DNA of 64,000 nucleotides, taken from positions 62,001-126,000 of the forward strand of contig QQUE01000015.1 of NCBI GenBank assembly GCA_008501765.1. The letters run 5' to 3'. The position numbers and the translations under genes were made by a program. This document shows, one piece after another, positions 77 to 61,368 of this stretch. Every line of letters begins with the position of its first letter. Position 1 is the stretch's first letter. A model generated the notes under the pieces. It had not been told where the DNA came from. It saw nothing but the letters and a program-made list of their open reading frames with translations, and did no database searches. The stretch is from Calditrichota bacterium (GTDB lineage Bacteria; Zhuqueibacterota; Zhuqueibacteria; Zhuqueibacterales; Geothermadaptataceae).

Positions 77-1198
77 CTATTTCAAAATGGCGTCAAAAAG
101 GAGTTGAATTCCTTTTTGATCGTACTCGGCAAGGCGCTGATTGCGTTTTGCCCGGATAAATTCAGGATTGATTTCCAGCGCTTTGTCAAATTGCAGCGAT
201 GCTTTATTATTGATAATTTTACTCAATATAACGTAGGCTACGCCCAAATGGTTATACAGGTCAGCATAATTTGGATATTTTTTCAGATTTTTTTCGATCT
301 GCTTGATGTGGCGTAAAACCATCCCACTCTTGAGTTTATTTTCATTGTGTAAAACGCGCAAATAAAAATCGAGAATAAATGGAAAATCGGTTGTTGGGGC
401 AACATAGCGCTTGCCTTTTTCAAATTCTGAAAATGCCTGTTCAAACTCTTTATTGCGCAAAAGTGCCTCTGCCCGGTCAAAATTTTCATTTCGATAGGCC
501 GGGTTGATTTTAATAGCCTTTTCCATGCATTCCATGACTTTGACATAAACATTAACCGACAAATTAAAATCTTCTCGCTTATGGGCATTTAAAACGAAGG
601 CGAGGCCTAAATTATAAAATGCTTCAGCGTAATATGTATTGATTTCAACAGCCTTTTCGAAGCACTCAACACCGCGTTTGCACTGCCCTTTTTTCAGGTA
701 CGCAAGTCCGAGATTATTATGCACGTCGGCAAATTGCGAGCGCAGTTTGATCGCCATACGCAAAACTTTCGTCGCTTCATCAACTCTGTCAACGCCGAGA
801 TAAGCACGTCCCAGGCTATTGTAAATAAGAGCGTTATCTTTATCTAAAACAGCGGCTTCTTCAAATTCTTGCACCGCTTCCTCAAACATGCCACGGCGCA
901 AAAATGCCAGCCCTAAAAGATTTTTGGTTTCAACCTGATCCGTATCCCGCATTTTTTGAGAGAGACCAAGCAGGGATTGCACTTCCGCTTTTTTCTCGTC
1001 ATGAAAAGTGCGGGTTTGCTGCAATAATTGCTCACCTTTGACAGCTTTATCATATTCCTTAAATTGCGTATTTATTAAAGCGCCATTGCGAAAAAACGAT
1101 GATATGATACGGTTTTCATATTCACTGTTTGCCGTTTTCAGAAAATATTCGCTATTTTGATTTGACCGAATAACATCGTTAAATATAAAATCACCCAT
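77..1198 (-). CDS. TPR-repeat protein, last gene of the exopolysaccharide operon
   Basis: This 373-residue protein is built mainly of tetratricopeptide repeats, seen as consecutive 34-residue helix pairs at about residues 95-230 (for example 'NSLGRAYLGVDRVDEA' and 'NNLGLAYLKKGQCKRG') and again at about 315-350. TPRs are protein-binding scaffolds, so it probably docks partners of the surface-polysaccharide machinery encoded upstream. There is no signal peptide and the first 90 residues carry no repeat I recognise, so a cytoplasmic location is inferred. It lies 90 bp downstream of the STAS gene on the same strand. The start has no strong ribosome-binding site. The repeat call is firm; the cellular role is not known from sequence. 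Confidence 0.8.
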   Translation of the reverse strand: MGDFIFNDVIRSNQNSEYFLKTANSEYENRIISSFFRNGALINTQFKEYDKAVKGEQLLQQTRTFHDEKKAEVQSLLGLSQKMRDTDQVETKNLLGLAFLRRGMFEEAVQEFEEAAVLDKDNALIYNSLGRAYLGVDRVDEATKVLRMAIKLRSQFADVHNNLGLAYLKKGQCKRGVECFEKAVEINTYYAEAFYNLGLAFVLNAHKREDFNLSVNVYVKVMECMEKAIKINPAYRNENFDRAEALLRNKEFEQAFSEFEKGKRYVAPTTDFPFILDFYLRVLHNENKLKSGMVLRHIKQIEKNLKKYPNYADLYNHLGVAYVILSKIINNKASLQFDKALEINPEFIRAKRNQRLAEYDQKGIQLLFDAILK

Positions 1199-34436: not shown

Positions 34437-34801
34437 AACCTTGCAAGGTAACAGCCATGCTTGAGAAAATCAAGAAAATTAAGCGAAGAAGATGTTAATT
34501 CTGAAAATCATAACTCCGCTACATTATCTACCAACACCGGCAATTGATTGATTAGATAAATCACAGATTTGATAGATTTTTCCGATTACTGCAATTTGCC
34601 CTGTTGAATAATCAATTTCAGATCGCAGTAAAGTCGCCAATTTTATCGTATCCGGAGTACAGCGAAGAAGCGGAATCAACTTATTAAATATGGAAAACTT
34701 TGAACCGCCGTCTGCGGATTACTGCATTACCAGGCTTAATTTCTGCTTGCCATTCGCACATGATTTATGTAAAATCCAGACCTATTAACCAAAAGAGATC
34801 G
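34437..34801. other. Intergenic region between manC and histidine-kinase gene
   Basis: These divergent genes are separated by about 365 bases that must contain promoters for both. I find no RNA gene or strong hairpin. The reading frame of the kinase is open through part of it (from a TTG at 34700), but without a ribosome-binding site or membrane-protein-like sequence. Confidence 0.45.
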
Positions 34802-36418
34802 ATGAAAAAATCACGTTTTGTCAAAATAATAGTCGCCTTCTTTTTCGCGCTTATTCTTCCGGTTGTCTCAGTCACCATATTTGAGGTGATCCAACATGAT
34901 AAAAATGAAACGCTGCTGGAATCAATCTATCAACGGCAATTAGACACTATTCTTTTCGCGGTGAATCAAAATTGCTGGATTAATTTTAATTCATGGGTTG
35001 CAGAGTTAACAGCACAGTTTAACAATAAATCCACCCCATTTCCGAACGAAAAAAAAACAGCAGCGGTTTTGGATAGATTTATCCGCTCTTACCCCTCTAT
35101 TCAAGGTGCCTTTATTCGAACAGATGTTGGAAAGTATACTGTTTCTTTGGAAGATGAATTGCTTTTTCAAAAAGAGCCAATCGCACATGAAAAATCCATA
35201 AATGAACTTGATAAGATCATTCTACTGGATCAAAAGGCAATTTTAGCAATGACGGATCTGGCGCGAAAAGGCTATGTTAATCCCCATGTTTTGCCTTGGA
35301 AACAAGCTGACAAGAAGCAGGTAACATTGTTACTTTTTCCGTTGCGAATCAGCGAAGACACCAAAATGATCCCAACCCTGGCAGGAATTTTTATCGACAA
35401 CCTTACTTATATCGAAGAAATAGTCGGGCGGAAATTTAATACGATGAATGAGAGTAATTTTATTTTTGGAGTCCGGGATACGCTATCCGGGCAAATAATT
35501 TACGCAACCGAGCACGTGGAATCCGAAATTTTTGAACGCAGTGAAGCTCTGTGGATTTTACCCAGCCTGCAATTGGAAATTAAACTCACCGGAACAACAC
35601 TTGAAGATTTTACCCAGGCGCGGGCACAGACAAACATAATTTTTCTAATCGTCGTCAATTTTATACTCGTTATTGGTATTCTCTATATCATTCGCTATGT
35701 TTATTTGGAAATGTTGTTAGCTCAAAAGGAGAAAGATTTTGTCGCGAATGTCTCACATGAATTGCGAACCCCGCTGGCGCTCATTCGAATGTTTGCCGAA
35801 CTCATGGAAATGGGACGGGTGAGATCTGAGGAGAAAAAGCAACATTACTACAAAACCATTATGGCCGAAAGCACGCGGCTGACGCAGCTCATTAATAATA
35901 TCCTCGATTTCTCAAAAATTGAGTCGAAAAAGAAAACTTATAAGCTGCTACCCGGAAATATTCGAGCGCTGGTCGTTGATATTCTGGATTTTTATCAATA
36001 CCACATCAAACAAAAGGGATTCGTTATCCATAATTCACTTGAATTGAATCTCCCTCAAATTCGTATTGATGAAGTGGCTATCCGGCAGGCAATCGTCAAT
36101 TTAATCGATAATGCCATAAAATATACCGACGACAAAAAAATTATAAATATAACATTGAAAACTGAGAATAATTCGATCATCCTGTCAGTTCAGGATTTTG
36201 GAGTGGGTATCCCCGCCCGCGAACATAAAAAAGTTTTTCAAAAATTTTACCGTACCGAAAACAGCCTTGTTCACAACACAAAAGGCAGTGGTCTGGGATT
36301 AGCGTTGGTCAAGAATATTATGGATCAGCACGCCGGTCAGGTCACTGTAAAAAGTAAGGTTGGCGAAGGAAGTACATTTTCACTAATTTTTCCAATCAAG
36401 CTGAAAAATGGAGCATAA
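34802..36418 (+). CDS. Membrane sensor histidine kinase
   Basis: The kinase has a first membrane helix at about residues 6-24, a periplasmic sensing region of about 250 residues with no family I recognise, and a second helix ('IIFLIVVNFILVIGILYII'). Next come a HisKA domain with the phospho-acceptor His in 'FVANVSHELRTPLALIRM' and a HATPase domain with N box 'RQAIVNLIDNAIKYTDD', G1 'VQDFGVGIP' and G2 'GSGLGLALVKNI'. It should autophosphorylate and pass phosphate to the response regulator that follows directly. ATG 34802 is preferred because it starts the membrane helix. The signal is unknown. Confidence 0.93.
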   Translation: MKKSRFVKIIVAFFFALILPVVSVTIFEVIQHDKNETLLESIYQRQLDTILFAVNQNCWINFNSWVAELTAQFNNKSTPFPNEKKTAAVLDRFIRSYPSIQGAFIRTDVGKYTVSLEDELLFQKEPIAHEKSINELDKIILLDQKAILAMTDLARKGYVNPHVLPWKQADKKQVTLLLFPLRISEDTKMIPTLAGIFIDNLTYIEEIVGRKFNTMNESNFIFGVRDTLSGQIIYATEHVESEIFERSEALWILPSLQLEIKLTGTTLEDFTQARAQTNIIFLIVVNFILVIGILYIIRYVYLEMLLAQKEKDFVANVSHELRTPLALIRMFAELMEMGRVRSEEKKQHYYKTIMAESTRLTQLINNILDFSKIESKKKTYKLLPGNIRALVVDILDFYQYHIKQKGFVIHNSLELNLPQIRIDEVAIRQAIVNLIDNAIKYTDDKKIINITLKTENNSIILSVQDFGVGIPAREHKKVFQKFYRTENSLVHNTKGSGLGLALVKNIMDQHAGQVTVKSKVGEGSTFSLIFPIKLKNGA

Positions 36419-36419
36419 A

Positions 36420-37103
36420 ATGGCAACAATTTTAATAGTTGAAGATGAAACTGAAATGGCGCAGGGCTTGCGAGACACTTTTGAATTTGATGGCCATGAA
36501 ATTCATATTGCCAGCGATGGCCAATCAGGGCTGGAAATGGCCTTGTCAAAGTCTTTTGATTTAATCATTCTCGACGTGATGCTACCTGAAAAATCCGGAT
36601 TTGATGTGTGCAAAGAATTACGGAAAAAGGGGGATAAAACACCTGTTATTATGCTGACGGCACGTCAGCAGGAAATTGACAAGGTGCGCGGATTGGAAAT
36701 TGGCGCGGATGATTACATTACCAAACCTTTTAGTGTACGAGAGCTGCTCGCCCGTGTGAAAGCTGTTCTGCGTCGCTATCCTGAAACCGAAGCAGGCCCA
36801 ATCAAATCGGCAAAAATTGGTGAATTGGAAATCGATTTTGAAAATTATAAAGCGAAAAATGCCACTGCAAAAGTAGAACTTTCTTATAAAGAATTCGAAA
36901 TATTGAAATTCTTATATCAACATAAAAATGAGGTGATAAGCCGGGACGAACTTTTAAATAAAGTTTGGGGCTACGAAATTTATCCGACTTCTCGCACTGT
37001 GGATAATTTTATCGCCAAAATCAGAAAAAAAGTTGAAAAAGATCCTGCCAGTCCAGCCCACATTTTAACTATTTACGGTATTGGTTATAAACTACTTGAG
37101 TGA
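36420..37103 (+). CDS. OmpR-family response regulator
   Basis: This is the cognate regulator of the kinase. Its receiver is intact: acidic pair in 'LIVEDETEMAQG', phosphoacceptor Asp in 'LIILDVMLPEKSGFD', Thr in 'VIMLTARQQ' and Lys in 'DDYITKPFSVREL'. A winged-helix DNA-binding domain follows ('LSYKEFEILKFLYQH', 'RTVDNFIAKIRKKVEKD', ending 'IYGIGYKLLE'). GGAG about six bases before ATG 36420 supports this start, which lies just past the kinase stop codon. This contrasts with the degenerate receiver at 26482-27165. Target genes are unknown. Confidence 0.95.
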   Translation: MATILIVEDETEMAQGLRDTFEFDGHEIHIASDGQSGLEMALSKSFDLIILDVMLPEKSGFDVCKELRKKGDKTPVIMLTARQQEIDKVRGLEIGADDYITKPFSVRELLARVKAVLRRYPETEAGPIKSAKIGELEIDFENYKAKNATAKVELSYKEFEILKFLYQHKNEVISRDELLNKVWGYEIYPTSRTVDNFIAKIRKKVEKDPASPAHILTIYGIGYKLLE

Positions 37104-37942: not shown

Positions 37943-40930
37943 ATGCGTAAAATCGTAATTTTGACCTGTACACTCATTCTCTTTTTGACAGGCTCAATTT
38001 GTTTTTCCCAAAATACTTCCAAATGGAAACAGGGTGTCCATTATAAAATCGAGACACAAATTGACACAACGGAACAAAAACTCCTGAGTTACATGGAGTT
38101 GACATACATAAACAATTCTCCGGAGACCTTGAACCGGATCTATTTGCAGGTTCCAGCGAATGCCTTTCAAAATAAAGAAAATACGGCTGCGAGGGAAATG
38201 GCCCGGTTTAATAAAGGCAACATACAATTTAACCAACGGGCAAAGGACGCGTTGACCATTAACAGTGTGCAGTTTTTAACCATCGGGGAAAAGAATAAAT
38301 TCCCTTTGCAAGCCTTTCATTTCACCGATACAATTCTCGATTTGCGGCTGCCTTCCCCGCTGCAATCCGGAGATACACTGCAAGTAGGCGTGAGCTTTGA
38401 GCAAGATTTAAAGCAGTCACTAACGAGAAAAGATCAAAATAAAGTAATCATTCGTCGCAATGCCTGGTTGCCGCTCATCGCGGTTTACGATAGCGATGGC
38501 TGGCAGGCAGAACCATTTCATTTTATGATGCAGAGCAGTGATGTTTTTACAGAATTTGCCGAATTTGACGTCACTATTTCTACACCCTGGAATTTTACCA
38601 TCGTTACATCAGGCGAAGCTGTAAGTGGCGATGCCGGGTGGTCTCTTTTTGAAGGAGACACTACAATGGTAGATTCTATTTTTGTAGCCTGGCGAGATTC
38701 CTTGCGTAAGGAGTACAAAACACAGGCACAAACGAAAGGCCTTCGCACTGTCCGTTTCAAAGCTGAAAAAAACCATAATTTCACCTGGATCGCCTCACCC
38801 AACCTAATCCATTATCAGCACATAAACCAGGGCAGAACCATCGATTTATTTGACCGTGGCAATAAAAGCAGAACCTGGATAAAATCGATGAGCGAGATTA
38901 TCGACTCGACTTTAGCGTTCCATTCGAGCTATTTTGGAGAATACCCGGAGAAACGATTCACGATTCTGAACCACTACGGCATGACACAACCGCGGCTTAT
39001 TTGCGGCAGTTCCGACCGTTTTGAGTTGGCAGCGACATTCGTCGAGGCCATAATGCCAGGGATCGTTTCTGTAAATACAATCAAAGAGGGGTGGATATCC
39101 AAAGGGATGGCAATTTACATCGGGAAAAAATTTAACGAGCAAAAATGGGGCAAAAGAGGCTATGATTTAAAGGAAGCACAGAAAGACCAGAACTTCATCG
39201 AAAAACGCTATCCCCTACCGTCACTGGATCAATTAGCCAAAGATTTTACCCGTCTTTATATGAGTTCCGGTCAAAATGAAGCTATCTCAAAACCTATTAA
39301 TGACTATTCCGATCCCATCAGTTATTTTATGAATTCCTTTTTAAAGGCGGAACAGTTTTACGAAATGCTTGAATATGTCATCGGTGATTCGGCCATGCGC
39401 GCATGCACGAAAGAACTCATGCAGCGGCACGCTTTTGAACACATCACAGAATCACAATGGCGGCAGGTTTGTGAAGATGTCTCTGGACAGGATTTAGGTT
39501 GGTTTTTCGAGCAATGGCTTTATGGCACGCCGACGATTGACTATAAAAAGGGCGCGGTGAAAAAATACCAGCGGGAGGACAAAAAATGGGTTACCGAAGT
39601 CGAAATTGAGCGCAAAGGTGACGGCATAATGCCTGTTGAAGTCGATCTCGATCTCGGCAGCGGTAAAAATGTGACACAGCGTTTCGATGGCTTTTCCCAA
39701 CGCGGCACAGTCGTATTCGTCACAGATGAAAAACCGAAAAAAGTCAAAGTTGATCCCACAGATGCTATTCTCGATAACAACATGCTCAACAACGGCAAAC
39801 CGAAATTCGAATTCAAACCGGACTTACCCTTTTTAAAAATGTACTACATGCCCGGTGATACGTATCTCCTGTTGTGGCGGCCTTTGGCCGGATACAATTT
39901 GCAGGATGGGTTAAAGCTGGGTTTGCGCACGAACGGTAGCTATCGTTCTGTTTTCAATAATCTTTCTCTTGAGCTGGAATACGGTTTTCTTTCAAAATCC
40001 TTTGACGGAAAAGTCGGCTACTCACACCCCATCTGGCGGGATAACATGCTGCACCGCTACTCACTTTTTGCTCGCCGGAATGAGGGCCGTTACGAGATTG
40101 ATGCCAACCTAAAATTTAATTTTTCCGGCGGCATCATCGCTACCGGCGGGCAAAGCCTTCAATTTGGAATTAATTTAATAGACGTGATCGATATGGATTA
40201 TCTCTACCGCGAGGTCGAAAATGAACAAGAGTCAGCGGAAATAACCGAATGGCAAAATAGTAAAATTTTCAGCATTTATGCCGCCGGGACTTTCAATAAG
40301 ATGTGGCCACATTTTGCATCATCCGGTAGATTTAAACTTTCATCAGCCATAAAACCGGGCGATGTCGAATTTTCAAAAATTAACGGGCGACTCGAAGGAC
40401 GTTATACCCAATTTGGACTCACCTCCCTGATAAATTTAAATGGCGGGCTGGCGATGGGAACAGATACTTTACCGTTGCAGGAAAAATTTGATGTCGCTCT
40501 CATTTCCCCGATTGAGCGGTTTCGAAACAACACGGTAAAAACCGGTGGCGATTGGAAAAACTTTAACCGCCGATTTGTTGAAGGCGGGGCGCGATTGTAT
40601 GGTTATGCCGGTCGGCCGATGCCGCTGGAAAAATATGTCAGCTATAATTTTGAGTTTGGACTGAATCGTGAAATCTTTGGCACCCGCTGGTTTGGTTTTT
40701 ACGATGAGGGATTGCTCTGGAACGAGCGCGATGGGGACCATTTACGGCGTGCTGATGCCGGTGTTGGTTTTCGCTTTCTCGACTTCAAATCGCTGTTTTT
40801 TGGTGGTAATTTGCCGTTGTTTGAGGGATTGTCCTTGCGAACATATTTCCCATTTTGGGTGAGTCACCCGTTGCCGGGCGAAGAAAAAAAGGCGTTTCGC
40901 TGGTTTGTGGCGTTCGGGAAAAAGTTTTAA
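37943..40930 (+). CDS. M1-peptidase-like protein lacking catalytic motifs, fused to outer-membrane beta-barrel
   Basis: After a signal peptide (1-23) residues about 30-530 follow the plan of M1 metallopeptidases: an N-terminal beta domain ('MELTYINNSPETLNRIYLQV'), the peptidase core and the closing 'VSGQDLGWFFEQWLYGTPTI'. The zinc site is gone: no HExxH is present where the helix 'RFELAATFVEAIMPGIVS' (about 359-376) lies, and the usual 'NEGxA.Y' is 'ISKGMAIYIG' (about 385-394). Residues about 630-995 alternate as long amphipathic strands ending in Phe ('WFVAFGKKF'), fitting an outer-membrane barrel. I infer a surface or periplasmic binding or scaffold protein, not an enzyme. Inverted copies of a mobile element flank it. 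Confidence 0.8.
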   Translation: MRKIVILTCTLILFLTGSICFSQNTSKWKQGVHYKIETQIDTTEQKLLSYMELTYINNSPETLNRIYLQVPANAFQNKENTAAREMARFNKGNIQFNQRAKDALTINSVQFLTIGEKNKFPLQAFHFTDTILDLRLPSPLQSGDTLQVGVSFEQDLKQSLTRKDQNKVIIRRNAWLPLIAVYDSDGWQAEPFHFMMQSSDVFTEFAEFDVTISTPWNFTIVTSGEAVSGDAGWSLFEGDTTMVDSIFVAWRDSLRKEYKTQAQTKGLRTVRFKAEKNHNFTWIASPNLIHYQHINQGRTIDLFDRGNKSRTWIKSMSEIIDSTLAFHSSYFGEYPEKRFTILNHYGMTQPRLICGSSDRFELAATFVEAIMPGIVSVNTIKEGWISKGMAIYIGKKFNEQKWGKRGYDLKEAQKDQNFIEKRYPLPSLDQLAKDFTRLYMSSGQNEAISKPINDYSDPISYFMNSFLKAEQFYEMLEYVIGDSAMRACTKELMQRHAFEHITESQWRQVCEDVSGQDLGWFFEQWLYGTPTIDYKKGAVKKYQREDKKWVTEVEIERKGDGIMPVEVDLDLGSGKNVTQRFDGFSQRGTVVFVTDEKPKKVKVDPTDAILDNNMLNNGKPKFEFKPDLPFLKMYYMPGDTYLLLWRPLAGYNLQDGLKLGLRTNGSYRSVFNNLSLELEYGFLSKSFDGKVGYSHPIWRDNMLHRYSLFARRNEGRYEIDANLKFNFSGGIIATGGQSLQFGINLIDVIDMDYLYREVENEQESAEITEWQNSKIFSIYAAGTFNKMWPHFASSGRFKLSSAIKPGDVEFSKINGRLEGRYTQFGLTSLINLNGGLAMGTDTLPLQEKFDVALISPIERFRNNTVKTGGDWKNFNRRFVEGGARLYGYAGRPMPLEKYVSYNFEFGLNREIFGTRWFGFYDEGLLWNERDGDHLRRADAGVGFRFLDFKSLFFGGNLPLFEGLSLRTYFPFWVSHPLPGEEKKAFRWFVAFGKKF

Positions 40931-41588
40931 AACTGAGTTCCAGCCAGTGCTGCGGTGCCGTAGCGGCGCAGAGAAAACACCTAATTATTATAAAACAAAA
41001 CTCTGCGTATTCTCAGGCTCTGCGAAAGACGCTATTTTGAATTAATTTTATTTTTTTTCGGCACTCTGAGTTCAACAATAAAATTGTAAAGAAGGCAAGG
41101 AACGCGAGTTCGATATAAGAAGAATTGGGACAAAACGAATTAATTATAGGATTTAGTCCGAAGGCGTCTCGCCGAGGATAACGCACGAAACGCTCGGCGA
41201 GACGCCTTCGCTCTATTTTAATTGTGCCTGGTAAAGAATGTTACAGCTTACATCGAACTCACGTTAAGTATACTTTTGATGTAATTTGTGAAAAAAGCGG
41301 GCTCAAACACCCGTATTTATTTAGCCTGTGTTCTGCCACGGATAAACCCAGATCAAACACGCTCTTCCTAATCAATAAAAACCACCATTGTATCTCACAT
41401 TTTCGCACAATTTCCTGCTCTTAAATCATTTCAATTCATGCTCAAAACAACGGTAAAGAAAAAAGTATTTAGCATTAACTATTATTGTGCGTTATATTAA
41501 TAGTATTCATAACTTTTTATGCAACTGCTTCGCGACGCAAAACAATTCGCAGTCTGAATCTTTCACATCTCATTACAGGAGTTTTCGC
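40931..41588. other. Intergenic region with element B and promoter of the propeller gene
   Basis: No gene is supported. The central part is element B (41104-41262). The reading frame upstream of the propeller gene is open from 41487, but its real start is at 41589. No terminator was found after the M1-like gene. Short plus-strand frames such as 41224-41424 have no features of real proteins. Confidence 0.55.
41104..41262. mobile_element. Element B: 159-bp MITE-like element, inverted relative to element A
   Basis: This copy has ends GCGAGTTCGATA (41104) and CATCGAACTCAC (41262) and the same central palindrome, GAAGGCGTCTCGCCGAG (41160-41176) facing CTCGGCGAGACGCCTTC (41193-41209). It is the inverse of element A with the same length and about 89% identity by eye. 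Together the two copies bracket the M1-like gene as a large inverted repeat about 3.5 kb apart. Confidence 0.75.
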
Positions 41589-43799
41589 ATGAAAAAATTG
41601 CTATTGACTCTTCTCATCATCAGCTTTTCAGGGCATTTACTCATGGGCCAGGATCCCGGGTATTCGTGGGATCGCGCCACAGGAATTGAAGCCGCATCCG
41701 TGCATGCACTCGCCATAGATGGCAGCGAAAAAATTTACGCGGGTACCACGATGAGTGGTGTTTTTTCTTCCGCAAATCAGGCAGAAAGCTGGTCTGGGCT
41801 CGAAAATGATCTCGCAACCATGACTGTCAGCGCCGCAGCCACGGGCAGTTCCAATCGCGTTTTTGCAGGCACCATCGATAATGCCGGCACTGCCGTATTT
41901 GCTTCAGACGATGCGGGTTCCCATTGGACGGAAATGTCAACCGGCTTGCCCGTCGGCAATGTTACTGCCATGGCTTCAGACGGCGCGGCACATATTTATG
42001 CCGGATTCAAAGATGGCGGACTCTATCATTCTGCCGATAATGGGGCCTCATGGCAGCAGCTAAGCAATGGCATTTCGGCGTCATTAGACGTTCAGGCGCT
42101 TCATGTTTCAGCAGCGGGAATTCTCTTTGTCGGCAGCATCGAAGGCATTCATCGTTCAGCCGACAACGGTTCATCCTGGTCAGCTATAAATGGGTCTCTC
42201 GGCACCCCAAACGTGCAATCTATTACCACGAATTCACGTGGTGAAATATACATTGCAACATCAATTGATGTTTATTCTTCCAACGATTCTGGCATGAACT
42301 GGACAGCGCTCGCTTTTCAATCCACCTCGGGTGGCAAAAGTGCCCTTCTGGTGCTGACCTCAGGCGATCTTCTCGTTGGAACTGTTGCGGACGGGCTATG
42401 GAAAAAGGATGCAAACAGCGCGAACTGGATGCAGGTTCAGGAACCCAGAGGCAGAGTCAACTGTTTGATTGATGCTGGAAATAATACAATTTACAGCGGC
42501 ACAACAGGTTTGGGAGTCTACAAATCCGGTGATGGTGGAAATACCTGGGAACGAAAGATGAGCGGTTTCGAAGCTGCAACCGTGACGGCAATCGGGGAAA
42601 TGGATGCGACTGCCAATATAGCGAACAATCCCAACGTCATTGCCATCGCACAAAATGATAAATATCACTACGCTGCCGTACTCGGCGGCTTGCTTTATTT
42701 TTCGTCAGATTTTGGCCGGACATTTTTCGCCTGCACCAGCAACGGTTTGAAGGGACAGGATATCAAAAAAATTGTCTGTATCGCCCAAACAATTTACGTG
42801 CTCACATATTTTGGCGCCATTTATACATCAACAGACTTTGGTAATAATTTTTTACCTTTTATGCTTGGCATGGCTGTGGGAGCCTTTGTAAACGATATTT
42901 GCAAAGGGCCTGACGTATTGCTCATGGCAGCGACAACCGTCGGTATTTTTAGAATTATGGCAGCCACTTTGCCGTGGGAACTCGTTTTTGCACAACCTGC
43001 CGTTGCTCTGCTCTATTCAGCGATAATGCAGCATTATATAATTTCAACCACAACACTGGGAATAATCATGGCGGCCTTTATTCCGCATTTTGTCTATGAG
43101 CAAATTAACAATGGCTTGCCCAATAATAACACACATATTTTAGCGACAAATCCGATATTCCCGGCATTCGCGATTCTGGCGATTCTTTATAACTCGGGTT
43201 ACGAAGCCTGGGGCAGGCAGAATGGTTTTACCGGCACTTTTTGGAATATTTCCGGGCTTCCCTTGCTGGCCTATATTGTCGCCGCACAATGGATCACCGG
43301 TCCGCAATTTTACGCGATATTTACCAGAAGCAATGGCATCTATTCCGTTGGTGGAGAAGCATCGACCAGTATGAAATTAGCCTGGAATTTCCTGCAATAT
43401 CTGTATATTCGTACTGCACTGGCCGTAGCTTACGGCGAGGGCAATCCTTTCCTCATGTTGGGCCTGGTGGGGCATGGACTCTACACCCTCAACGAATCGC
43501 CAAGTGCGGTAGAATTAAGCGATAATTCCATTCCGGAATCCGTTCAACTTGCGCAGAATTACCCAAATCCATTTAATCCGACGACGACAATTCAGTTTCA
43601 CTTGCCGACGACGCTTAAAACAAAGCTGGAAATTTTTAACACCCTTGGGCAACGGGTTCGCACCCTCGTCGATGCGACGCTGAATGCAGGGCAGCATAAA
43701 TTTAATTGGAATGCTGCAAATCAGAAAAGTGGGATTTACTATTATCGTTTGAGTACTTCACAAAGTGTGCAAGTGAGAAGCCTCGCGTTTGTCAAATAA
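41589..43799 (+). CDS. Secreted beta-propeller protein with FlgD-like C-terminal sorting domain
   Basis: The start at 41589 (AGGAG upstream) begins a signal peptide ending near 'LLMGQDP'. Residues about 20-350 are propeller/BNR-type blades with repeated 'YHSADNGASWQQLSNGI', 'HRSADNGSSWSAINGS' and 'YKSGDGGNTWERKMSG' modules. From about 350 to 640 the blades drift: 'IYTSTDFGNNF' is still blade-like, but stretches such as 'ALLYSAIMQHYIISTTTLGI' and 'FPAFAILAILYNSG' are unusually hydrophobic. The last 90 residues are the type-A sorting/FlgD-like domain ('AQNYPNPFNPTTTIQFHLP' to 'SGIYYYRLS'), which in FCB bacteria directs proteins outside. Function is unknown; surface binding is plausible. Confidence 0.85.
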   Translation: MKKLLLTLLIISFSGHLLMGQDPGYSWDRATGIEAASVHALAIDGSEKIYAGTTMSGVFSSANQAESWSGLENDLATMTVSAAATGSSNRVFAGTIDNAGTAVFASDDAGSHWTEMSTGLPVGNVTAMASDGAAHIYAGFKDGGLYHSADNGASWQQLSNGISASLDVQALHVSAAGILFVGSIEGIHRSADNGSSWSAINGSLGTPNVQSITTNSRGEIYIATSIDVYSSNDSGMNWTALAFQSTSGGKSALLVLTSGDLLVGTVADGLWKKDANSANWMQVQEPRGRVNCLIDAGNNTIYSGTTGLGVYKSGDGGNTWERKMSGFEAATVTAIGEMDATANIANNPNVIAIAQNDKYHYAAVLGGLLYFSSDFGRTFFACTSNGLKGQDIKKIVCIAQTIYVLTYFGAIYTSTDFGNNFLPFMLGMAVGAFVNDICKGPDVLLMAATTVGIFRIMAATLPWELVFAQPAVALLYSAIMQHYIISTTTLGIIMAAFIPHFVYEQINNGLPNNNTHILATNPIFPAFAILAILYNSGYEAWGRQNGFTGTFWNISGLPLLAYIVAAQWITGPQFYAIFTRSNGIYSVGGEASTSMKLAWNFLQYLYIRTALAVAYGEGNPFLMLGLVGHGLYTLNESPSAVELSDNSIPESVQLAQNYPNPFNPTTTIQFHLPTTLKTKLEIFNTLGQRVRTLVDATLNAGQHKFNWNAANQKSGIYYYRLSTSQSVQVRSLAFVK

Positions 43800-47094: not shown

Positions 47095-48258
47095 TTAATC
47101 TTCGACCGCTTCAACTTTTGCCGGCGGCATATTTCCCTGCGCCACATCCAATTGGTCTTTGAATTCAATGCTGTAAATATCGAGAATCGTCATAAATAAT
47201 ACGGTGATTATCGGGCCGAGAATAAATCCCATGACGCCGAAAACATAAATGCCACCGATAGATGAGAAAAAGATGAGCAAATCGTGCATGCCGGTATCAC
47301 GGCCAACGAGCTTGGGGCGCATGAAATTATCGATATTGCTGATGATAACCGCTGTTATGATTATGATTGCCAAACCCTGCCAGTAATGGCCCAGAACGAG
47401 CTCGTAAATGGCTGCGGGATAGAGCACCAGCCAGCCACCCACCATGGGAATCACCGACAAAATGAACATCACCATGCCGAACACCACCGGCGATTTGAAG
47501 CCAAAAATCCACAGCAAAAGCGCGCCCAGGCCGCCCTGGGTCAATCCGATGAGTAATGTGCCTTTCACCGTTGCCCGGGAAATCGAATTGAATTTCGCAA
47601 TCAACAGATCTTCATGTTCGTCGCGCAATGGGCTCAAATATTTCAAATATTTTATCAGCCGGTCGCCATCTTTGAAGAAATAATACATGGTAAAAAACAT
47701 GATAAGAAAATCCATCAGAAATTGAAAAGTGCCCTGCCAGGTTTTATTGACCGCAGTGACAAGAAAATTCCCGACCCCAGTCAAGGCCGTTTTAATGGTG
47801 GTAAAAATATCAAACTCTTCCAGATTGATGCCGTAGCGTTCGCGGGTATTGTCGACGATTTTACCCCAGGTGCCCGAGTTCAATTTATTGCGAAATTCGG
47901 TGATAGTCTGCTCGTGGGTCTGGTAAAGCTGCACCGCTTCAACCCGAACGACATCGATGACAAAATAGGTTGGAACGATGATAACAATCACCAGGAAAAT
48001 GCAGGTTAAAAATGAGCTCAGTCCTTTGCGGTTGGACGTCCATTTCATAATTTTTTCGTACAGTGGATATAGCAATCCGCTGAAGATGGCGGCGAGAAAT
48101 ACCGGCAGCAAGAAAAACTGCATTATGTTATAAAATAAAATCCCGGAGAAAATTATAACAGCAAATAAGAAATATCGGCTCAGGCGGTCAGCCTGAATTT
48201 TTGTAAATATTTTCGAAGGCGAAGAAATTTTCGCCTTTTTTGGTATTTCCTGTCCCAT
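47095..48258 (-). CDS. AI-2E family (PerM/YdiK-like) membrane transporter
   Basis: This is a 387-residue protein with about eight membrane helices, including two near the N-terminus ('RYFLFAVIIFSGILFYNIM'). The C-terminal half has the family signature 'LIGLTQGGLGALLLWIFGF', 'PMVGGWLVLYPAAIYELV' and 'NFMRPKLVGRDTGMHDLLIF'. Family members have been proposed to export small molecules, and E. coli TqsA exports AI-2; some are Na+/H+ antiporters. The substrate cannot be read from sequence. GGAG five bases before ATG supports the start. It is followed by the 166-bp repeat. Confidence 0.92.
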   Translation of the reverse strand: MGQEIPKKAKISSPSKIFTKIQADRLSRYFLFAVIIFSGILFYNIMQFFLLPVFLAAIFSGLLYPLYEKIMKWTSNRKGLSSFLTCIFLVIVIIVPTYFVIDVVRVEAVQLYQTHEQTITEFRNKLNSGTWGKIVDNTRERYGINLEEFDIFTTIKTALTGVGNFLVTAVNKTWQGTFQFLMDFLIMFFTMYYFFKDGDRLIKYLKYLSPLRDEHEDLLIAKFNSISRATVKGTLLIGLTQGGLGALLLWIFGFKSPVVFGMVMFILSVIPMVGGWLVLYPAAIYELVLGHYWQGLAIIIITAVIISNIDNFMRPKLVGRDTGMHDLLIFFSSIGGIYVFGVMGFILGPIITVLFMTILDIYSIEFKDQLDVAQGNMPPAKVEAVED

Positions 48259-58284: not shown

Positions 58285-61200
58285 TTATCCACTCCCCAAT
58301 TGTGAGGTTAGCCAGGATCCTTGCGCGTTCAGCTTGGCGATTGTCTCTTCCATAACTAAAAATTGAGAAATCAAACGCTGGCGCTTCATACCGAGCGTGT
58401 CTTCCATGCGCTCAATATTTCGATCGATCCTGTCAACTGTATCTGACAGCGATTCCATTTTAAACTCAACATAACCATCAAAATTATCTGTTAAGCCGTA
58501 TGCTGTCCGGTAAAAATTTTCCATTATCCCCAGAGTTAGCGAAATTGAACCGACAGCGCCGATACTGGACCCGGTATACTGAAGTACCAGTCCGTCAATA
58601 TTGGATTCGCCATCGCTGCCCGTTAATATTTGGCCACTTCCTGTGGCCGCTTCACCATTTATAGTTCCAGCTACATCCGTTCCATTGTAGGTTTGATCGG
58701 TCATCCCCAAATTATTTGCTGTTTGGGATAAGGTAAATCCATAACCACTCCCATAACTGTTATGGGAGAGCACAAGCTGATTGCTCCCATTTTTACTGGC
58801 GGTCATTTCGATACCATAGCGTCCGGTTACAGTTGTAGATGTTGTCCCCAAATCCAAGCTACCGCCGTCAGTGATTCCACTGATACTAAATCCAAGCTGG
58901 CTGGTCCCGGTTTCCCGTTCAGTAATTATGAGCGCGCCGTTGGTATCGATCGTCGCATACACCTCGTTATTGTAGGCAGACTCAACCGCGGAAAGCAAAC
59001 CCTGCACCGTATCGGTTGAGGTATCTGTGATCGTGTAAGACCCGCTGATATCATAACCACTCCGCCGCGTTCCAGTGAAATTTATCACTGCGCCGTTTGA
59101 AATATCGTTTGTTCCACCACCGGTATCGATTGCATTCCACAAACTCGACGATGTTATCGCACCACCGGCGATCAGGCTGTTGTTGGCGGAAGATGTTAGT
59201 TGTTGCGCATAATCTGTTTGGAACTCAGTATTAAACTTGGAAACAACCTCATCGATATCGTCTCCGGAGGTCAGGGAAATAGTGGCAACACGATTCGTCA
59301 ATGTATCGGTAATCGTGACAGTTTCATCACCTGAAATACCGCCGGACAAATCTGTCGTACCGGTTGTGGCGCCTTTTGAAGCTGCCTGGGTGATATTAAG
59401 ATCATAATTTCCCGCAATGGTGTCAATACCATTCGAGACAAATTTAATCGTACTCGAGCTGCCTTCTCCACGCACGGCCATCAAATCGAGGACATCGGAA
59501 AAATTATTGTTGAGTAAATCGGTCAGCTCATCGTTGTCAATTTTTAATGAACCATCGTCCTGCAGATTGATGCCGATTAAACCAAGCGTTGTATATGACG
59601 AAGTTATGCCAGTGACACTGGCCAAAACTTGTGTTACCAAATCCGATTTTACCGAGCGTAAAGTTCCATCCCCAAATAATATGCCGCCGGTTTCTTCGTT
59701 TTCGCTGTCATAACTTTGTTGCTCTGAAATAATTGTAATTATGCTGTTGTAGGCATCGACAAAGCCCTGAATTTTCCCTTTAACTTCCTCCACATCACGG
59801 TCGATGGCCAGGGTGACGGTTGTATCCGTTTTAGCTGAAACTAAATTTAGCGACACACCGGATATAAGATCGGTAATACTGTTCGATTCCCGGCTGAAGG
59901 TCGCCCCGTCAACCTCAACGAGCGCATCAACACCGGTGACAAGTTCCATATCGCGGCCAGCCGTTGTTTCTGTTAGTTCCCCAAAATCGAGTGTGCCGCC
60001 GCCCTCATTCCCGGCAAAAATATTCACCTCAAGCAACGATCCGCCCGCTGTGAGATCTTTTACGACCAGCATCCCGGCCGTATTGCCATCACTCCCATCG
60101 CTGAAATAGGCATCAACCAGAGAGGCACCACCAAATGCCGTTTCGATTGTCTCAAGAAAGCCACCAGTTGCATTTAATGCCTCGCTGGTATTTGAAATTG
60201 TAAAAGTTGAACTTACAGCAGTCCCGTCATTTTTTTTACCGGTAATTGTCATGGTATCACTCAGGACAACATTGTTTGCATCACTGCCGGTGTTTATTTC
60301 CGACCATAAAGTGGTGTCAGAAACCACCCCACCACCGGCCGCAGAAGTCTGCGTCATTGCATTGGCTGAAGTGTGCATTTCATTTATTGATGATTGTTGT
60401 CCTTCGAGGATTCCGAGAATCTGTAAAACATTGCTACTATCGCTGAAGGATGTTGTGCCGCTGATATCGATGCGGTAGAGCGTATTGCTATCAGAATCAG
60501 TTTCGGTGACAACAGATGCTGATATCCCGGTTAGAGCATTAATATTCGCGGCGATATCGGTTAATGACTCCGATTGCAGGTCAATATTTACTGCCTGCCC
60601 GGCAATCGTTACCGAAGTTGAACCGGGAATGGTGCTCAACCCACGCAGGGAGCCTACAGCAGTTGCTGACGATGCATAGGTGTCGCTTTTCGCCCCGTCA
60701 CTGGTTCTTGATTTTATAGCAGAAGTGGAATTTACAAATCCCAGGCTCTGGAGAATATTGGAAGTACTGGCATCCAAAAGCGAAAATCCAGTACTTCCCG
60801 AATCGTCACTGGTTAAAATGAGTTGATACTCATCACTTGCACTGGAAATGATTGTCGCCGTGACGTTGGTAGCATTTGCCCCATTATTTAACAGATTTAC
60901 CGCATCACGGATATCTTCCAATGTATCAGTAGTCGAAACAGCAATCGCTTGTCCATTAACTAAAAACTCTCCCGACAAACTGAGCGCAGTGTCCCGGGTT
61001 GAGAATACAGCCGAGCCCATTTTTTGTGCCTGCGCCTTCTGCAGAACGCGAATATTGTACGTTCCGCGTGCTGCCGAATTTGTCGTTGAAATAGTAAGAA
61101 TATCATCCGGATCTGTTGAGCTCGAGCTGGCAAGACTTGAGCTAAAAAGATTGTAAGTCTTTTCAGCTGTTAAGTCTTGCGCAACACTTTGCAATTCCAG

Positions 61201-61368
61201 AAGTTTGGAATTAATATTCTTCCATTCTGCAAGCTGCCCGTTATAGAAATCACGTCTGCCTTCTAAGATTGACACACGTCCCCTGTCGATCTCCATCATC
61301 TGGTCAATAATATCGCGCCAATTGAGACCAGAAATGAGACCGCTCACCGATGCGAGAGCGTCAGTCAT
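58285..61368 (-). CDS. fliD: Flagellar filament cap protein FliD, unusually long
   Basis: FliD forms the cap at the filament tip under which flagellin assembles. The N-terminal domain is clear ('SGLISGLNWRDIIDQMMEID'), followed by a coiled segment and the flagellin-like 'hook IN' region ('NSAARGTYNIRVLQKAQAQK'). The C-terminal coiled coil is near the end ('RIDRNIERMEDTLGMKRQRL'). At 1027 residues it is about twice the usual size (450-700). A module of about 130 residues appears twice, at about 346-475 and 736-860, starting 'SDTTLWSEINTG' and 'TSSSLWNAIDTG'. These probably form extra domains on the outside of the cap. It is 32 bp downstream of flaG. Confidence 0.94.
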   Translation of the reverse strand: MTDALASVSGLISGLNWRDIIDQMMEIDRGRVSILEGRRDFYNGQLAEWKNINSKLLELQSVAQDLTAEKTYNLFSSSLASSSSTDPDDILTISTTNSAARGTYNIRVLQKAQAQKMGSAVFSTRDTALSLSGEFLVNGQAIAVSTTDTLEDIRDAVNLLNNGANATNVTATIISSASDEYQLILTSDDSGSTGFSLLDASTSNILQSLGFVNSTSAIKSRTSDGAKSDTYASSATAVGSLRGLSTIPGSTSVTIAGQAVNIDLQSESLTDIAANINALTGISASVVTETDSDSNTLYRIDISGTTSFSDSSNVLQILGILEGQQSSINEMHTSANAMTQTSAAGGGVVSDTTLWSEINTGSDANNVVLSDTMTITGKKNDGTAVSSTFTISNTSEALNATGGFLETIETAFGGASLVDAYFSDGSDGNTAGMLVVKDLTAGGSLLEVNIFAGNEGGGTLDFGELTETTAGRDMELVTGVDALVEVDGATFSRESNSITDLISGVSLNLVSAKTDTTVTLAIDRDVEEVKGKIQGFVDAYNSIITIISEQQSYDSENEETGGILFGDGTLRSVKSDLVTQVLASVTGITSSYTTLGLIGINLQDDGSLKIDNDELTDLLNNNFSDVLDLMAVRGEGSSSTIKFVSNGIDTIAGNYDLNITQAASKGATTGTTDLSGGISGDETVTITDTLTNRVATISLTSGDDIDEVVSKFNTEFQTDYAQQLTSSANNSLIAGGAITSSSLWNAIDTGGGTNDISNGAVINFTGTRRSGYDISGSYTITDTSTDTVQGLLSAVESAYNNEVYATIDTNGALIITERETGTSQLGFSISGITDGGSLDLGTTSTTVTGRYGIEMTASKNGSNQLVLSHNSYGSGYGFTLSQTANNLGMTDQTYNGTDVAGTINGEAATGSGQILTGSDGESNIDGLVLQYTGSSIGAVGSISLTLGIMENFYRTAYGLTDNFDGYVEFKMESLSDTVDRIDRNIERMEDTLGMKRQRLISQFLVMEETIAKLNAQGSWLTSQLGSG

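Follow-up and report, generated by a model that had tools for sequence, protein, structure and literature searches.

The open reading frame at 37943–40930 of the window, i.e., of the whole 64,000-nucleotide stretch of Calditrichota DNA analysed here, encodes on the forward strand a protein of 995 residues (ATG start) in which we recognize, with very high confidence, a secreted M1-peptidase fold and, C-terminal to it, an outer-membrane barrel. The zinc ligands of the peptidase are gone, the clade to which the protein belongs evolves under purifying selection, and the protein probably binds something instead of cutting. An inactive M1 fold carried on an outer-membrane barrel had been proposed for this frame, with the same coordinates, in a preliminary description; the comparisons below bear this out, as a conserved lineage present in 13 of the 63 genomes of the class rather than as a one-off.

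Domain organization and relation to M1 peptidases

The Sec-type signal peptide (Table 1) is helical in both predicted models, i.e., that of the full-length protein and that of residues 1–620, and cleavage would follow directly after residue 22. The match of the window protein to PF01433 is confined to residues 441–525 and falls slightly below the Pfam cut-off (E = 2.5e-5); relatives of equal length and layout match the same family with E-values of 1e-13 to 3e-19, and a profile built from 25 family members retrieves M1 peptidases from the PDB with E = 7e-14. The predicted structure of residues 1–620 (pLDDT 79.6, pTM 0.81) assumes an M1 fold, for which Foldseek returns M1 aminopeptidases, IRAP and ERAP among them (E = 8e-25, probability 1.00; TM-scores, relative to the query, of 0.52–0.60); its input alignment contained many active M1 sequences, by which the fold is partly steered. 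The Pfam match, the PDB profile and the structure prediction agree with the preliminary description in that the overall M1 plan is retained.

Residues 28–620 share their fold with M1 enzymes such as aminopeptidase N, LTA4H, ERAP/IRAP and the tricorn factor F3, and the signature GxDLxWFFxQWL at the C-terminal end of the catalytic domain is common to these enzymes and the window protein. Unlike the M1 (gluzincin) metallopeptidases, the window protein lacks HExxH, the glutamate that serves as third ligand and the GxMEN motif, and has a membrane barrel attached.

Table 1 Features of the M1-barrel protein encoded at 37943–40930
Feature	Residues	Window positions	Strand	Basis
Sec-type signal peptide without lipobox, MRKIVILTCTLILFLTGSICFS	1–22	37943..38008	+	Sequence reading
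M1 N-terminal β domain	28–225	38024..38617	+	Alignment with active homologues; model and Foldseek match to M1 aminopeptidases
Degenerate M1 catalytic domain	226–533	38618..39541	+	PF01433 at 441–525; PDB profile matches; model
GMTQP, GGMEYP (GxMEN-type) in active relatives	346–350	38978..38992	+	Alignment
ATFVE, where HExxH is expected	364–368	39032..39046	+	Zinc/catalytic columns
Lys387, at third zinc ligand Glu (DEG/SEG)	387	39101..39103	+	E in 30/30 active, K/R/T/N in 10/10 inactive
Conserved C-terminal piece of the degenerate catalytic domain, GQDLGWFFEQWLYGTP	515–530			
M1 β-sandwich domain, abutting the barrel	534–620	39542..39802	+	Model, pLDDT ~90
Predicted Omp85-type outer-membrane barrel	~625–995	39815..40927	+	hhalign against the genome's own Omp85 proteins; controls: TonB receptors and shuffled sequences
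GGARLYGY, putative counterpart of the Omp85 (V/L)RG(F/Y) loop motif	881–888	40583..40606	+	Alignment
FYDEG, putative Omp85 FxDxG motif on a following strand	919–923	40697..40711	+	Alignment

Loss of the zinc site and descent of the inactive lineage

The columns of the zinc and catalytic site were read from an alignment with 30 active homologues, all of which carry His, Glu, His and Glu at the positions corresponding to 364, 365, 368 and 387; in the window protein these are Ala, Thr, Glu and Lys, and the M1 tyrosine position (466) is occupied by Phe. The absence of HExxH, of the NEGxA glutamate and of the GAMEN-type motif, as noted in the preliminary description, is thereby confirmed. The zinc ligands are missing in all 10 aligned inactive members, where the replacements vary and none is common (A/Y/F/S at 364, E/Q/K/R/S/Y at 368 and K/R/T/N at 387); the catalytic-glutamate column 365 (T/E/A/S) still holds Glu in three of the 10. 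Two members beyond the aligned 10 (L160 and L161), read in part or whole, have likewise lost the site. A zinc site formed by other residues had been named as the finding that would speak against inactivity; no invariant His or Cys specific to the clade, and no alternative conserved metal site, was seen near the original one in the alignment of the inactive clade, the clade-specific invariant residues there being Pro372, Lys395 and Tyr423.

Purifying selection is evident from Nei-Gojobori dN/dS ratios of 0.06–0.18 over the whole gene and 0.14–0.20 over the catalytic domain for inactive pairs, which are near the overall values of active pairs (0.08–0.11); for the window protein and its homologue L038 synonymous sites are saturated, and their ratio of 0.056 is indicative only. 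The inactive and active sets differ in age, and only the contrast between domains is therefore meaningful in the following identity values. The site region, with a mean identity of 38% in the inactive set vs 76% in the active set, is among the least conserved stretches of the inactive clade. The N-terminal domain, the C-terminal part of the catalytic domain, the β-sandwich domain and the barrel (46% vs 38%) are conserved about as well as in the active set or better, the segment 226–335 of the catalytic domain being the exception (37% vs 55%); no part is conserved more strongly in the inactive clade than the β-sandwich domain (58%). Low identity at the site, with the other domains kept, points to constraint that is relaxed around catalysis and retained elsewhere.

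The 13 genomes with the inactive form belong to three families of the class (f1, f2 and f7), and their proteins are 41–73% identical to the window protein; one genome (G024) contributes a barrel fragment in which the site is not readable. M1-barrel proteins with an intact HExxH...DEG are 22–37% identical to it, the closest of them by ~30–34% over the whole length. In the tree, ten inactive sequences form one clade with support of 100/100, which branches from within the active M1-barrel proteins and has the active pair L018/L019 as its sister; the support remains at 100 when the site columns 336–402 are removed, and a single change of state suffices. A single inactive clade, nested among active kin that often reside in the same genome, means that the inactive form arose once, from an active M1-barrel enzyme. 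In nine of the 13 genomes the inactive gene is accompanied by a close active-type paralogue. For the window genome and G001 the sole active M1-barrel protein is a distant one (L002, L141; ~23% identity); in G008, a genome with 100% completeness, nothing besides the inactive protein matches the M1-barrel family at E = 1e-15, and many genomes carry the active protein alone. A scan of viral contigs for further family members found none.

The barrel and the active M1-barrel family

The C-terminal third of the protein, which ends in AFGKKF and had been taken for a barrel in the preliminary description, very probably belongs with the Omp85 (BamA) superfamily, judged by sequence kinship. With a profile of 30 family barrels in hhalign, all 12 Omp85 proteins compared, which come from the window genome, score 22–57, compared with 13–18 for eight TonB-receptor barrels and 10–18 for 12 shuffled sequences; the alignments to the Omp85 proteins mostly cover one common stretch. 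Profile against profile, the family barrels match Omp85 with E = 6e-9 and a probability of 96%. PF01103 is found below threshold only (E = 0.0016, in two of 25 family members), and BamA is the second-best PDB match of the barrel profile (E = 0.001). Most PDB matches of this profile are MHC class I chains, which we rejected as a chance match to GNLRGY. The full-length AlphaFold2 model has a pLDDT of 47, with ~20–48 in the barrel part, for which only three to four barrel sequences entered the alignment.

Within the C-terminal 370 residues, most family members read GGGNLRGY at the Omp85 loop 6 motif; the window protein and L038 lack the arginine of RGY, and in the window protein a tyrosine stands in its place (LYGY), while FxDxG is retained as FYDEG. 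No match to a POTRA domain was obtained in 25 family members, and the M1 β-sandwich domain directly adjoins the barrel. POTRA domains are not universal in the superfamily, since it includes subfamilies with non-POTRA N-terminal domains or with no N-terminal extension (PMC4104836). A soluble domain, enzymatic or other, ahead of an Omp85-type barrel is also the layout of the patatin-Omp85 proteins PlpD and FplA and of WD40-Omp85 proteins, whose barrels carry (L)RGY and FxDxG motifs; in the window protein the M1 lobe replaces the patatin or WD40 domain. No patatin domain was matched by Pfam in the window protein, and PlpD is used here as an analogy of topology only. The window genome itself has two Omp85 barrels behind a β-propeller, of the WD40-Omp85 type (L156 and L159), each followed by a gene whose product resembles the GWxTD family. 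The canopy proteins of the Bacteroidota BAM complex (PMC12611786) were considered as a candidate match and dismissed, since they include no peptidase.

The closest relatives of the window protein are active M1-barrel proteins of ~1000–1090 residues from Calditrichota and Bacteroidota (L131, L128, L002 and L180–L186), which combine an M1 fold with an Omp85-like barrel and, unlike the window protein, have kept HEVGH...DEG and GGMEYP. Within the phylum the barrel profile finds matches in 34 of 82 genomes, for the most part in frames of ~1000 residues, and it also finds them in Bacteroidota genomes, where five loci (L180–L183 and L185) have HE[VI]GHNWFFG...DEG, and a sixth (L186) HEGGHQWFYG, in the same frame as the barrel. 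NCBIfam has no equivalog for the active proteins. The active M1-Omp85 fusion appears to be common across the phylum and occurs in Bacteroidota as well, and neither Pfam nor NCBIfam lists it under a family name of its own. Two loci in Rhodothermia (L184 and L189) have tandem frames of ~434 and 437 residues that encode barrels of the same type standing alone, with no M1 domain attached.

That a pseudo-peptidase on an outer-membrane barrel had not been described, as the preliminary description had it, stands within the literature searched: no account of an M1-Omp85 fusion came to light there, which is weak evidence of absence, as most subscription papers fall outside that literature. In a survey that distinguishes ten Omp85 subfamilies, the word peptidase does not occur (PMC4104836). 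Pseudo-peptidases and enzyme-Omp85 fusions are both known kinds, and it is their combination that was not found described.

Proposed function and genomic surroundings

Since the protein has lost catalysis yet kept its fold and its barrel, the simplest interpretation is that it binds a partner protein, a peptide or an unfolded polypeptide, and we favor, with some confidence, a binding or scaffold function of the conserved pseudo-peptidase. We propose that an outer-membrane M1 peptidase with an Omp85-type barrel duplicated or diverged early in the Calditrichota-type class, and that one lineage then lost zinc binding and catalysis wholly and retained fold and barrel. The protein would be exported via Sec, and its C-terminal barrel would insert into the outer membrane; the M1 lobe, anchored there, would act without catalysis as a chaperone or scaffold, keeping a polypeptide or a partner protein at the outer membrane. 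A precedent for such a use of the fold is TAF2, a subunit of TFIID in which an M1 fold without catalytic zinc acts as a non-catalytic scaffold; TAF2 differs from the window protein in being eukaryotic and nuclear, in having no membrane barrel and in its independent origin. As a tentative further step, M1-Omp85 proteins may be an undescribed subfamily of outer-membrane enzymes, and one of their branches in Calditrichota-type bacteria may have specialized as a periplasmic factor on an Omp85 barrel that binds polypeptides without catalysis, in the manner of a chaperone or a POTRA domain. The analysis turned up no ligand, no binding partner and no operon that is conserved, and the gene neighbors vary between families. 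The active paralogues of equal architecture, often in the same genome, offer a ready control, which makes it testable what role an M1 fold has without catalysis and whether an Omp85 barrel can be served by domains other than POTRA.

The M1 lobe is likely to be periplasmic, by analogy with Omp85 proteins, whose N-terminal domains lie in the periplasm; the patatin domain of PlpD has been shown to stay there (PMC11116518). The preliminary description had envisaged a receptor or a peptide-binding surface protein; in such a reading the barrel would pass the M1 lobe to the outside, and an outer-membrane barrel with a large soluble domain would be compatible with this, as translocation of the PlpD passenger was itself once assumed (PMC11116518). 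However, the M1 part precedes an Omp85-like barrel, and in PlpD, the best-studied fusion of an enzyme with Omp85, this arrangement leaves the enzyme domain on the periplasmic side, which makes a periplasmic anchored binding scaffold likelier than a surface receptor or adhesin, and the latter appears distinctly improbable. If the barrel instead were the working part, as an insertase or translocase of Omp85 type for which the dead M1 lobe guides the substrate in place of POTRA, its kinship, its better conservation in the inactive than in the active clade, the adjacent best-conserved β-sandwich domain and the lack of a visible POTRA would fit; however, the window protein and its nearest relative have lost the loop arginine, other enzyme-Omp85 fusions such as PlpD are not known as protein inserters, and the genome already has 14 Omp85 matches exceeding the Pfam cut-off, so that we regard this role as unlikely.

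A role in regulation, as a pseudo-subunit that partners an active M1-barrel paralogue or competes with it, would be in keeping with the nine genomes that hold both forms and with the homodimers that PlpD forms in the membrane (PMC11116518). We consider it rather improbable, since G008 dispenses with such a paralogue, the window genome and G001 offer only a distant one, the active form occurs alone in many genomes and the active and inactive genes are not neighbors. Persisting enzyme activity with a relocated metal or a non-metal catalytic site is very improbable: pseudo-enzymes may retain activity through migrated residues (PMC10211241), however, the inactive clade has no new invariant His or Cys near the site, and the substrate-anchoring GxMEN motif is gone as well. 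Loss of the catalytic motif could also mark a decaying gene or an assembly artefact, a reading with hardly any probability left, as full-length open frames in several independent genomes, retention in three families of the class and the low dN/dS already refute it.

A histidine kinase and a response regulator lie upstream (34700–37103) and a T9SS-sorted propeller protein downstream (41487–43799); as candidate parts of the system they were rejected, because they are absent beside a 72%-identical copy (L110/L038). A gene for an AI-2E transporter (window 47095–48258) recurs near the inactive gene (L014/L017) and near the active sister pair L018/L019 in the family of the window genome, and in this context (L119, L120, L115 and L118) active and inactive forms look like occupants of one and the same locus.

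Upstream of the gene, the intergenic segment 37189–37735 is made up of members of short interspersed repeats, the ends of which are inverted (TCTGGTTATCCAGTTAACTCAGC/GCTGAGTTAATTGGATAGCCAGA). Among the 40 of 170 candidates that were scored, a piece of ~263 bp has at least ~20 copies in the genome, most of them at 95–98% identity, and a second piece of ~170 bp has more than 20 copies elsewhere in the genome at 91–93%; the repeats resemble MITEs and are apparently recent. Elsewhere in the window, 58285–61368 encodes a FliD-like protein of 1027 residues, which is long for a flagellar cap.
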